DNA from: Atribacterota bacterium
Lineage (GTDB): Bacteria; Atribacterota; Phoenicimicrobiia; Phoenicimicrobiales; Stramentimicrobiaceae
NCBI GenBank assembly: GCA_028717805.1
Contig: JAQUNC010000021.1
Span: 1-40,743 of the forward strand
Length of the DNA: 40,743 nucleotides
Direction: 5' to 3'
A model generated the notes under the pieces. The model had not been told where the DNA came from, did not search any database, and was given only the letters and a program-made list of their open reading frames with translations. This document shows positions 37,471 to 40,523 of this stretch, piece by piece; positions within the stretch are counted from its first letter, which is position 1; each line of letters opens with the position of its first letter. The translations under genes were made by a program, and so were the position numbers.

Positions 37471-38190
37471 TTAAGACCTAATCCCGCTTATGCGTAAGAA
37501 TACCATTGGATTTTGAGGATCATTGGTCATAATGCGTATTGCTTTACGGAACTTTCCCTCTTTCAACTGGCTGGTAGAGAGGTATACCTCTGCCTGATAA
37601 TGCTTTCCTGGGGACATGGTAAGGGGTAATTTCAGATTATGACTGAATATATCTTCTACAACTATATCTTCAATCACTAGATCGGCGTCGCCGGTATTAG
37701 TAATGGTAAATTGAAGAACAGATTGTTCTTGTCCGCTAATATTTCCTAGAACAAAGGTCTGCTGTGATAGTTTTATATCTGGATTAGGAAGTCTTGCGAC
37801 GGTGATAGTCAAATCAATTTTTTTTTCTGGATGCTCTGGGTCATTGGATTTAATGGTAATATACTTGCTGACATCTCCTTCATAACCATAAGGATCAAAG
37901 GTAGTTTTAAGTTGGGTTTCTCCTCCAGCTGGTATCTCTTTTTCACTCAGCTCCAGGCTGACACAGGCACAGGATGAATAAACCGATTCAATAATTAGTT
38001 TATCTTCCCCCTCATTTTTTAAAGTAAATTGATGAGAGACTATCTGATCAGGCATAACCTCTCCGTAATGCCAGTTTTCTTCTGATAATACCAATTTTGC
38101 CTGTTTAGTCTTACTGCAACCGGCTAAATTTATTAACAGTACACAAATAGCAAATAAAATAATTATTTGTTTTCTACTAATAAAAGACAT
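37471..38190 (-). CDS. DUF1573-family lipoprotein
   Basis: This is a 239-residue exported lipoprotein. The signal sequence ends in the lipobox LAGC (22-25), so Cys25 is lipidated. Two tandem Ig-like beta-sandwich domains follow (about 32-130 and 137-237), each with the DUF1573 pattern (HYGEVMPDQIVSHQFTLKNEGE and VLGNISGQEQSVLQFTITNTGD). The SCAC motif (73-76) in the first domain matches the STCGC-like cysteine pair common in the family. The function of DUF1573 is not established. It follows the redoxin gene by 20 bases on the same strand, so the two are co-transcribed. Confidence 0.88.
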   Translation of the reverse strand: MSFISRKQIIILFAICVLLINLAGCSKTKQAKLVLSEENWHYGEVMPDQIVSHQFTLKNEGEDKLIIESVYSSCACVSLELSEKEIPAGGETQLKTTFDPYGYEGDVSKYITIKSNDPEHPEKKIDLTITVARLPNPDIKLSQQTFVLGNISGQEQSVLQFTITNTGDADLVIEDIVVEDIFSHNLKLPLTMSPGKHYQAEVYLSTSQLKEGKFRKAIRIMTNDPQNPMVFLRISGIRS

Positions 38191-38210
38191 TTATTTACCT
38201 TTCTAGTATA

Positions 38211-38840
38211 TTATTCAAATCCTGGAGGGGGAGGGCAGACTCCGCCATCGCAACCACTGCTTTTATTATTAATTTTTTGAGAGGTAAAGATAAATTTTAG
38301 GTATTGATAGAAGCTAGCTTCCTGCCTGGTTGTAAAGCGGCTATATACCTTTCTGACATATAGGTCTGATCTTAGTAAGAGTATAGTAGGATAGCTTTCA
38401 ATCTCATAGCTGGCATTTACTTTTCCATCTACATCCAACAGGATAATAAGAGGTATTTCTGTTTTTTCTTTCAGGTTAAATAGCCTTTCCTGTATCACTT
38501 CTATAAGCTCATCCTGGCAGATAATGGCAATAATCTGATAACTTTCCCGAGGCTGGTAATCGTTAAAGAAATTTACCATATCCTCTAATTTAGCAATAGA
38601 GGAAGGCTCATTGCTATGTACAAAACAAAGTATAAGATGCTGTTGTTTATTTGAAAATTGGTTAAGCTGATAGACTTCTTCATCCAGTGTCTCCAGGGCA
38701 AAATCTGGTACCGGTGAACCGGTATTGTATTGAGCCAGAACAGGACTGGAAGCAAAAAAGAGAACAGAAACAAAAAGAGTTATCATACATATTCTGAAGA
38801 AATTACTAAAAGTTGTTCTTTTGTTCTTTAATTTTATCAT
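38211..38840 (-). CDS. Exported redoxin (TlpA/AhpC-like) lacking CxxC, with C-terminal Cys tail
   Basis: This is a 209-residue exported thioredoxin-fold protein (signal about 1-36, ending VLA-Q). The TlpA/AhpC start GSPVPDFALETLD and the cis-proline SYPTI (Pro151) are present. At the position of the catalytic cysteine pair it reads FVHSNEPSSIAKL, so both active cysteines are missing. The tail is CDGGVCPPPPGFE with Cys197 and Cys202, a CxxxxC pair followed by a proline run. It may be a non-catalytic binding protein, or the tail may carry the redox centre. It is encoded with a DUF1573 lipoprotein and divergent to a thioredoxin-CcdA fusion. An AAGGAG site is present. Confidence 0.82.
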   Translation of the reverse strand: MIKLKNKRTTFSNFFRICMITLFVSVLFFASSPVLAQYNTGSPVPDFALETLDEEVYQLNQFSNKQQHLILCFVHSNEPSSIAKLEDMVNFFNDYQPRESYQIIAIICQDELIEVIQERLFNLKEKTEIPLIILLDVDGKVNASYEIESYPTILLLRSDLYVRKVYSRFTTRQEASFYQYLKFIFTSQKINNKSSGCDGGVCPPPPGFE

Positions 38841-39068
38841 TTTTTCTCCTTACTATTAGGTTAAAGATTATAGTCTTATCAATATTATATAATATTTCAG
38901 TAAAAATTTCATTAAAATTAAGCTAGTTTATAATAAAATTACTCACTATATTAACTAAATAAGTAAATCTTTAAAATCATTTTAAAAACTAAAAAATTAT
39001 ATTGACAAGGATAATAATAGTATTACTATAGAGCAAGCAAGCTAAAAACTCAGGAGGGATCATTCCTA
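38841..39068. other. Divergent regulatory region upstream of the redoxin gene
   Basis: About 230 AT-rich bases without a gene, containing the plus-strand promoter listed at 39002-39032. Confidence 0.45.
39002..39032 (+). promoter_or_regulatory. Possible promoter ahead of a small ORF
   Basis: TTGACA (39002-39007) and TATAGA (39027-39032) are separated by 19 bases, a slightly long spacer. It precedes a short ORF with a strong ribosome site. Confidence 0.45.
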
Positions 39069-39128
39069 ATGGAGAGATTAGCAAAAATTTATGCTATACT
39101 TTCTGATAAAAACTGCTTAGATTCCTAA
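39069..39128 (+). CDS. Possible small protein or leader peptide (19 aa)
   Basis: ATG at 39069 follows the strong site AGGAGGG (39052-39058) and encodes MERLAKIYAILSDKNCLDS before a TAA at 39126. A promoter-like sequence lies upstream. The peptide resembles the first helix of ArsR-type regulators (a LAKI-x-x-LSD pattern), so it may be the remains of a regulator, or a leader peptide for the thioredoxin-CcdA gene 150 bases on. Evidence is limited to the ribosome site and promoter. Confidence 0.35.
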   Translation: MERLAKIYAILSDKNCLDS

Positions 39129-39208
39129 AATTACCGCAGTATAGCCCCAGGTGTGTTTGTGATATTAAGCCAGAGGTAATGTTGAGATAATTCCTAGACC
39201 AAGTTTTT

Positions 39209-39237
39209 TTGCTATCAAAAAATAAAATATGTATAAT
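39209..39237 (+). promoter_or_regulatory. Promoter of the thioredoxin-CcdA gene
   Basis: TTGCTA (39209-39214), a 17-base spacer and TATAAT (39232-39237) lie 47 bases before the ATG at 39285. Confidence 0.65.
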
Positions 39238-39284
39238 AAAAGTAATATTGCCGTTTATTTTAGAACAATAATGGAGAATTGCAA

Positions 39285-40523
39285 ATGAAGAAAACTTATC
39301 AAGATACAATTTTCACTAATCCTAATAATAGTCGTAATATTACTGTTATTTTCTTGTTGTTACTGTTTTTAGCCATTAATTTAAATATGCTAAATTTCTC
39401 TGCCTGGGGTCAAGAAATCAGTGAGGATATTTCATCCAAAATACCCATTTATATTGCTGATTTTTTTGAGCCTGGCTGCCATGATTGTGAAAGAGCAGCA
39501 AGGTTACTGGAGCAGATTGCCTTTCAATACCCTCAGGTAGAAATCCGAAAATTTGATATCTCTACAACGAAGGGTATAGCACTCGCCGAACAGTTGGGAG
39601 AGATATACGGAGTACCCGAGTATGATCGATTACTGGTCCCTTTAATTTATATTGGTGATAGTTTTCTTTTAAGAGAACAAATTAACTATGATAATATCGT
39701 TAACCAGATAGAACAGATAAAGGTAGAGGAGCCTCCGCCCTGGGAAAAAACAGAAGAAGACCCTACCTCAGTTCAACAGCGCCTTATTGAGCGTTTCCAA
39801 TCATTCGGTATAGGCGCTATTGCCGTTAGTGGGCTCATTGATGGCATTAACCCCTGTGCCTTTGCCACCATCATCTTTTTTATTTCTTACCTAGCTTTAA
39901 TTAAGAGAACCGGGAAGGAATTGCTTTTGGTTGGAAGTATGTTTACGCTGGCTATTTTCTTAACCTATTTTCTGATTGGTGCCGGAGCATTAAGGGTGGT
40001 AACCACCCTTTCCTTTTTACCTTTAGCCAGACAGATATTTATCTTTGTTACTGCCGGTATCGGTATTATTTTGGGGACACTCAGTTTGTTAGATTATCTG
40101 AAATATAAGAGAACCGGACAGACCGGCGATGCTACTCTACAGCTGCCTCCCCGTATTAAGCAGATGATTCATTCCACCATACGAAAAAATGTCAAAACAC
40201 ATAATTTTGTTATCATGGCTGCGATAACTGGTTTTATGGTCTCTATTTTAGAATTAGCCTGTACCGGACAGATTTATTTACCCACTCTCATTTTCATCAG
40301 TAATGTTCCAGAGCTTAGAGCCAATGCTCTAATTTACCTCTTGATTTACAATTTTATGTTTGTAGTACCCTTAATCCTGGTCTTTTTATTTACCTACTGG
40401 GGAACTAGTTCCCAAAAATGGGCAGAGCTAAATAAGAGACACTTTGGTACGATAAAAATAATAATGACTGTTTTATTCTTTGGATTGGCTATCTTATTAA
40501 TTATAACCGGATTACTTTTTTAA
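39285..40523 (+). CDS. Thioredoxin-like/CcdA (DsbD-type) fusion membrane thiol reductase
   Basis: This is a 412-residue protein: an N-terminal signal or anchor (about 20-43), a thioredoxin/glutaredoxin-like domain with active site CHDC (65-68), a linker, then a CcdA/DsbD membrane domain of six or more helices (about 170-412). The two membrane cysteines of DsbD proteins are visible in DGINPCAFAT (Cys191) and ELACTGQIYLP (Cys326). CcdA/DsbD proteins carry reducing electrons from cytoplasmic thioredoxin across the membrane. I use the ATG at 39285, with GGAG eight bases upstream, instead of the TTG two codons earlier. It is divergent from the redoxin/DUF1573 pair, its likely extracytoplasmic partners. 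Confidence 0.9.
   Translation: MKKTYQDTIFTNPNNSRNITVIFLLLLFLAINLNMLNFSAWGQEISEDISSKIPIYIADFFEPGCHDCERAARLLEQIAFQYPQVEIRKFDISTTKGIALAEQLGEIYGVPEYDRLLVPLIYIGDSFLLREQINYDNIVNQIEQIKVEEPPPWEKTEEDPTSVQQRLIERFQSFGIGAIAVSGLIDGINPCAFATIIFFISYLALIKRTGKELLLVGSMFTLAIFLTYFLIGAGALRVVTTLSFLPLARQIFIFVTAGIGIILGTLSLLDYLKYKRTGQTGDATLQLPPRIKQMIHSTIRKNVKTHNFVIMAAITGFMVSILELACTGQIYLPTLIFISNVPELRANALIYLLIYNFMFVVPLILVFLFTYWGTSSQKWAELNKRHFGTIKIIMTVLFFGLAILLIITGLLF

Follow-up and report, generated by a model that had tools for sequence, protein, structure and literature searches.

A conserved C-terminal cysteine tail on a CxxC-less redoxin in a putative extracytoplasmic thiol locus of Atribacterota

Introduction

What does an exported redoxin do once the cysteines of its active site are gone, and how are extracytoplasmic thiols handled in bacteria without a detected Dsb or VKOR oxidation system? 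Both questions are raised by a locus of an Atribacterota bacterium of the order Phoenicimicrobiales. The locus lies in a stretch of 40,743 nucleotides (GenBank contig JAQUNC010000021.1; here, the window), which is contig C21 of the window genome, G000 (2.27 Mb, 92 contigs). Three open reading frames (ORFs) make up the finding: a redoxin-fold protein without CxxC, a DUF1573 protein, and a membrane protein with thioredoxin-like and CcdA-like parts. The redox activity of redoxins is usually read from CxxC, and a family with its cysteines on a tail would be annotated as inactive even though selection has kept two thiols at another place in the protein. A working arm of this kind would provide a natural example of an active site that has shifted from the fold to the tail. 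The named partners (CcdA-like protein, CxxC thioredoxin-like protein, and DUF1573) also offer a route to the role of DUF1573, whose function Pfam still gives as unknown.

Results

Translation of the redoxin ORF agreed with a preliminary description of this DNA: the CxxC position is occupied by LCFVHSNEPSSIAKL (HSNEPSS), and the C-terminus, which reads SSGCDGGVCPPPPGFE, ends in a CxxxxC tail with four prolines. Orthologues of this redoxin were found in 17 of the 24 genomes of the order. Loss of the tail cysteines in homologues had been named beforehand as an outcome that would count against the proposal, and two tail cysteines were present in all 17 orthologues, spaced C-x4-C in 16 and C-x3-C in one (G004, CDDGCSPPPDW). 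The typical tail has the form C-[DNEG]-[DGE]-G-[VT]-C-P-P-P-P-G-[FY], from which G004, G008 (PPPPEFE), G015 (CDPPPGH), G022 (PPPAGY), and G021 (PPPED) depart. When the two families of the order were compared (8 and 9 genomes), identity reached 0.77 for the tail, against 0.27 for the body, 0.23 for the linker, and 0.17 for the signal region, and the tail ranked first among all 11-residue windows of the redoxin (median, 0.25). The linker that joins the tail to the redoxin body is hydrophilic and variable. Third positions of the tail proline and cysteine codons differ among orthologues, so that what selection maintains is the protein sequence.

The motif was also searched for as DNA. A strict pattern, CxxGxCPPPPG, matched in 15 of 386 genomes, and the reversed control pattern matched in none of the 386. 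Twelve of the 15 belong to the order, with one match each, always in the redoxin gene. The three matches outside the order (G112, G224, and G256) were taken as chance because no ORF of at least 60 amino acids reads the motif there. Together, these data confirm that the tail is more than chance and that a CxxC-less redoxin with a conserved cysteine tail exists in this order. No literature title or abstract naming such a tail was found, in a search whose coverage is thin for subscription journals and which is weak evidence of absence.

The body of the protein is recognizable as a redoxin by its match to Pfam AhpC-TSA (PF00578; E 2.4e-9, 37.6 bits, above the cut-off of 26). By eye, its N-terminus is signal-like and ends in VLAQ, directly before YNTG. 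A profile built on the 17 orthologues (A1) had as its nearest solved structures the thioredoxin-family proteins 4hqs and 2yp6, which we take to be Etrx proteins, plus ResA, and the CxxC of these relatives falls on a stretch of A1 without a conserved cysteine. CxxC was absent from the entire length of all 17 orthologues, and the NCBIfam ResA model NF002854 gave the window redoxin 32 bits against a cut-off of 170. The active-site region of the orthologues holds no conserved cysteine that could be peroxidatic. The redoxins of G002 and G013 contain no cysteines other than the two of the tail, and thus none in the body.

The tail was followed outside the order with A1 in a sample of 386 genomes and in further samples of 245 and 4 genomes, for which only matches at E<=1e-18 were taken. 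Among named genomes one relative was found, a Candidatus Atribacteria metagenome-assembled genome (L002) with the same protein as G002, which belongs to the window's genus. Redoxin loci of sister Atribacterota (L019 to L031) have CxxC in 13 of 13 cases, and the tail is absent from all 12 whose end is visible (the end of L028 is cut off). The idea that the tail was gained is plausible on this distribution, but orthology of the sister genes is not established. Among 26 control redoxin ORFs from outside the order, CxxC is present in 20 and missing from 6; one of the six, a short second ORF of L062, has cysteines near its end and no CPPP tail. In a further set of outside loci, chosen so that first-sample loci with CxxC were excluded, CxxC was absent in 16 of 16 rows; the set comprised the three best outside matches of the 386-genome sample (G310, G135, and G275) and matches from the 245-genome sample. 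None of these 16 has the tail, and their short flanks gave no CcdA-like or DUF1573 match. Thus, among the sampled genomes, the conserved cysteine tail was seen only in this order.

Two A1 matches among those listed, in G304 (to position 207) and G341 (to 198), reached the tail columns and were rejected: each runs through a stop, and the proteins there have CxxC and no tail, as does the redoxin of G127. Redoxins without CxxC occur in other phyla (L162 to L169, L062 to L064, L068, and L069), with, for example, WSTWSAKS and a signal-like N-terminus; most have long C-terminal extensions, and some stand in tandem. Loss of CxxC is therefore a wider phenomenon.

Linkage of the redoxin to CcdA and DUF1573 genes, the other point on which the proposal had been made to depend, is frequent across the order. 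A CcdA-like gene adjoins the redoxin gene in 13 of the 17 genomes; the two genes are divergent in the family to which the window belongs and point the same way in the second family. In G001, G019, and G020 it is not adjacent, and a contig end lies less than 400 bases from the redoxin; the CcdA-like gene of G001 is on a contig where, by eye, an insertion sequence-like gene lies upstream. A DUF1573 gene lies within 1.1 kb of the redoxin in 14 of 17, and G010 and G015 reach a contig end. The seven genomes of the order without the redoxin (G005, G007, G012, G014, G017, G018, and G023) are 63 to 91% complete; among these, only G007 and G012 have a CcdA-like gene, that of G012 at a contig end.

A fourth component, a thioredoxin-like protein with CxxC, is absent from the window. 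Its gene adjoins that of the redoxin, at no more than 50 bases, in 8 of the 17 genomes, with further copies elsewhere (G000 included), and its CxxC is invariant in all 10 aligned sequences. All four genes form a co-directional set in four of the nine genomes of the second family (G011, G013, G021, and G022), where the CcdA-like gene comes first and is followed by the redoxin, thioredoxin-like, and DUF1573 genes. In G006 (L038, 1956-8608), five thioredoxin-like CxxC-family ORFs, not all contiguous, lie upstream of the redoxin; one of them covers just the C-terminal part, and another, which has extra sequence, reaches 758 amino acids. A full-length copy in G000 (L132, 3014-3817, contig C46) is, by eye, near O-antigen ligase-like and Wzz-like genes.

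The membrane protein had been described as a thioredoxin-CcdA fusion, a label that holds in part. The protein has a CHDC motif and two membrane cysteines that align with those of CcdA, and the cysteines are invariant in an alignment of 12 of the 17 sequences found (Table 1). Against seven canonical CcdA proteins, however, hhalign gave an E value of only 0.0021 (probability, 13.6), in an alignment that pairs both membrane cysteines. No CcdA or DsbD model of Pfam or NCBIfam matched the window gene at E<=1, a PF02683 search of G000 at E<=0.01 did not include it among its matches, and a 552-amino-acid homologue in G032 scored 20.7 bits with PF02683, below the cut-off of 27.1. "CcdA" should thus read "divergent CcdA-like." The closest relatives of this protein are sister Atribacterota proteins of about 550 to 600 amino acids (hhalign E 8.2e-53). 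In G032, a redoxin with CxxC and a lipobox-like start lies two genes from such a large relative, which suggests that the ancestral partner of the CcdA-like protein may have carried CxxC.

The DUF1573 neighbor is as first described. The window protein carries SSCACV and, by eye, a lipobox-like LAGC, and it passes the cut-offs of both Pfam DUF1573 (PF07610; E 2e-31, 108.3 bits, cut-off 26.1) and NCBIfam OS_HP2 (NF041425; 103.8 bits, cut-off 100). It keeps the C-x-C of these families, with cysteine where some members carry selenocysteine. Such members, with UxC and UGC, are listed in a metagenomic survey and two reviews (PMC2398784, PMC9312934, and PMC13188914). Because selenocysteine (UxC) members have been published, the CxC of DUF1573 is plausibly redox-active.

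Searches for VKOR, DsbA, and DsbB (E<=0.001) found no match in any of eight genomes of the order (G000, G002, G004, G006, G010, G013, G016, and G022); the same searches matched 3, 8, and 6 of 14 controls, respectively. CcdA-like proteins occur in the order despite the lack of a DsbA, DsbB, or VKOR match. A paper on Atribacterota JS1 mentions thioredoxin once, in a gene list (PMC10826368).

Table 1. Positions in the window of the three genes and of their cysteine motifs
Feature	Positions	Strand	Basis or remark
DUF1573/OS_HP2-type lipoprotein	37471..38190	-	ORF list, Pfam, NCBIfam
SCAC, C-x-C of DUF1573	37963..37974	-	Both cysteines invariant in 14 of 14 aligned
Redoxin-fold protein, exported, 209 amino acids, without CxxC	38211..38840	-	ORF list, Pfam, NCBIfam, A1 profile
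C-terminal tail CDGGVCPPPPGFE (C197, C202, P203-P206)	38214..38252	-	Best-conserved 11-residue window of the redoxin
Degenerate active site, residues 75-81, HSNEPSS	38598..38618	-	A1 profile aligns the stretch with the CxxC region of 4hqs and 2yp6
Thioredoxin-like and CcdA-like membrane protein, divergent from the redoxin	39279..40523	+	ORF list, hhalign
CHDC (EPGCHDC), CxxC of the N-terminal thioredoxin-like domain	39477..39488	+	Both cysteines invariant, 12 aligned
Membrane cysteine in INPCAFA	39855..39857	+	Invariant in 12 aligned; matched with first CcdA cysteine
Membrane cysteine in ELACTGQ	40260..40262	+	Invariant in 12 aligned; matched with second CcdA cysteine

Discussion

We tentatively read this locus as an extracytoplasmic thiol-disulfide relay, in which the dead redoxin body would present a mobile dithiol arm between a CcdA-like importer of electrons and CxxC or CxC acceptors. 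If the membrane protein behaves as the CcdA/DsbD family does, electrons would pass from cytoplasmic thioredoxin to its two membrane cysteines and then to its own outer CHDC domain, which would reduce a C197-C202 disulfide on the redoxin tail. The redoxin body, with no conserved active-site cysteine, would serve as a docking platform, and the tail, on its variable hydrophilic linker, would act as a mobile redox arm that may hand electrons to the CxxC of the adjoining thioredoxin-like protein (where present), to the CxC of DUF1573, or to both. The genes, the motifs, their conservation, and their linkage are observed; we infer that the tail forms a disulfide, which way electrons flow, that the body docks, and which protein accepts the electrons. 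More specifically, and as a possibility that we put forward with caution, the redox center may have been relocated from the thioredoxin fold to a C-terminal shuttle arm, made of C-x3/4-C and a polyproline rod, with the dead fold kept for docking; the arm would then belong to a reducing pathway outside the cytoplasm, in bacteria without detected DsbA, DsbB, or VKOR. The preliminary description, which saw the tail as a possible flexible redox or metal-binding arm with electrons supplied by the fusion protein, is borne out in conservation and linkage and needs revision in its use of the name CcdA.

The redoxin is probably an unusual form of an already known type of thiol relay. CxxC at the start of the first helix is the active site of TlpA and ResA. 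Like TlpA, ResA, and Etrx, the window redoxin is an exported redoxin fold whose gene neighbors encode a CcdA-like protein and further thiol proteins; unlike them, the 17 orthologues lack CxxC and have cysteines on a C-terminal tail instead. Because CxxC is missing, we do not file the protein as a member of this group, despite its Etrx-like layout. The CxxC-less redoxins of other phyla share the fold, the signal-like N-terminus, and the loss of active-site cysteines, but they have neither the tail nor, in their short flanks, a CcdA-like or DUF1573 match. In Ero1, a CxxxxC shuttle disulfide on a flexible segment passes electrons between thiol sites. The likeness of the tail to this segment is by analogy only, as Ero1 is unrelated and the redoxin chain has no inner CxxC or flavin. 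The membrane protein resembles the CcdA/DsbD domain (PF02683) in its two aligned cysteines and differs in that it escapes the family model and has its own N-terminal thioredoxin-like domain. The pneumococcal Etrx lipoproteins, which have the thioredoxin fold, are described as reducing MsrAB2 and as being fed in turn by CcdA proteins (PMC3914529).

Several observations weigh against a relay. The homology of the membrane protein to CcdA is weak, so that its label is only partly supported. G006 has kept the redoxin, and its CcdA-like gene stands on a different contig. Of the two CcdA-like genes of G007, one has no redoxin in the surrounding 12 kb and the other is at a contig end, and no redoxin was found in that genome. 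G016 has neither a DUF1573 nor a thioredoxin-like gene in the 8.8 kb downstream of the redoxin, and no single acceptor is common to all 17 neighborhoods. With DsbA, DsbB, and VKOR unmatched in all eight genomes searched, the relay is left without an assigned oxidant. AlphaFold2 gave no confident model of the redoxin with two sequences (mean predicted local distance difference test score, 46). Finally, a bare dithiol leaves the conservation of PPPPG and of the terminal aromatic unexplained.

Alternatively, the tail may serve recognition or docking and carry no electrons. A structural disulfide would close a small loop, a polyproline rod would follow, in most cases with an aromatic close to the C-terminus, and the whole would hold the protein in place within a complex. 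The prolines and glycine are conserved about as well as the cysteines, and the linker is variable. However, the neighbors carry reactive-type cysteine motifs, and a structural disulfide would be odd because DsbA, DsbB, and VKOR are undetected in these genomes; we consider this reading unlikely. Similarly improbable is a tail that binds a metal or metalloid (Zn, Cu, As, or Hg) through thiols that the thioredoxin-like partners keep reduced. Sco proteins are redoxin-fold copper proteins with C-x3-C spacing, the spacing found in one orthologue, and the two tail cysteines flank a short loop with glycine and acidic residues. An ArsR-type gene (ELCVCEL) follows DUF1573 in G019, G020, and G011, and the NCBIfam ArsG model weakly matches the CcdA-like protein (E 0.78). 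Against a metal site, neither a histidine nor a third ligand is conserved in the tail, the cysteine spacing is not fixed (x4 or x3), and in the family of the window genome the locus was not noted to have an ArsR-type neighbor.

That the tail marks the C-terminus for processing or attachment, by cleavage, lipidation, or another modification, is a good deal harder to defend. The motif is short, strictly terminal, and conserved on a variable linker, but in the 12 genomes of the order with the strict pattern it occurs once per genome and always in the redoxin, whereas sorting signals are normally common to many proteins; no hydrophobic segment follows the tail, and none of the genes noted nearby is an obvious candidate for a modifying enzyme. 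We reject the idea that a different body cysteine keeps the redoxin active as a peroxidase or reductase: some orthologues have a cysteine within about six residues of the CxxC-aligned columns, but none of these is conserved, and G002 and G013 have no body cysteine.

Other features of the locus

In the window, the DUF1573 gene lies 20 bases downstream of the redoxin gene on the same strand, and the two probably form one operon. The divergent thioredoxin/CcdA-like gene is separated from the redoxin by 438 bases. Its true start is more likely the ATG at 39285, with GGAG upstream (by eye), than 39279. The ArsR-type genes downstream of DUF1573 in 3 of the 17 genomes lie at L039 3665-4003, L041 7492-7863, and L046 965-1306. 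An Rfam scan of the locus gave two small nucleolar RNA matches, both under the gathering score, which were taken as chance. Inside the divergent intergenic region, a 19-codon ORF, MERLAKIYAILSDKNCLDS (39069-39128), has a Shine-Dalgarno-like site; it was not seen in the equivalent intergenic regions of five sister relatives.

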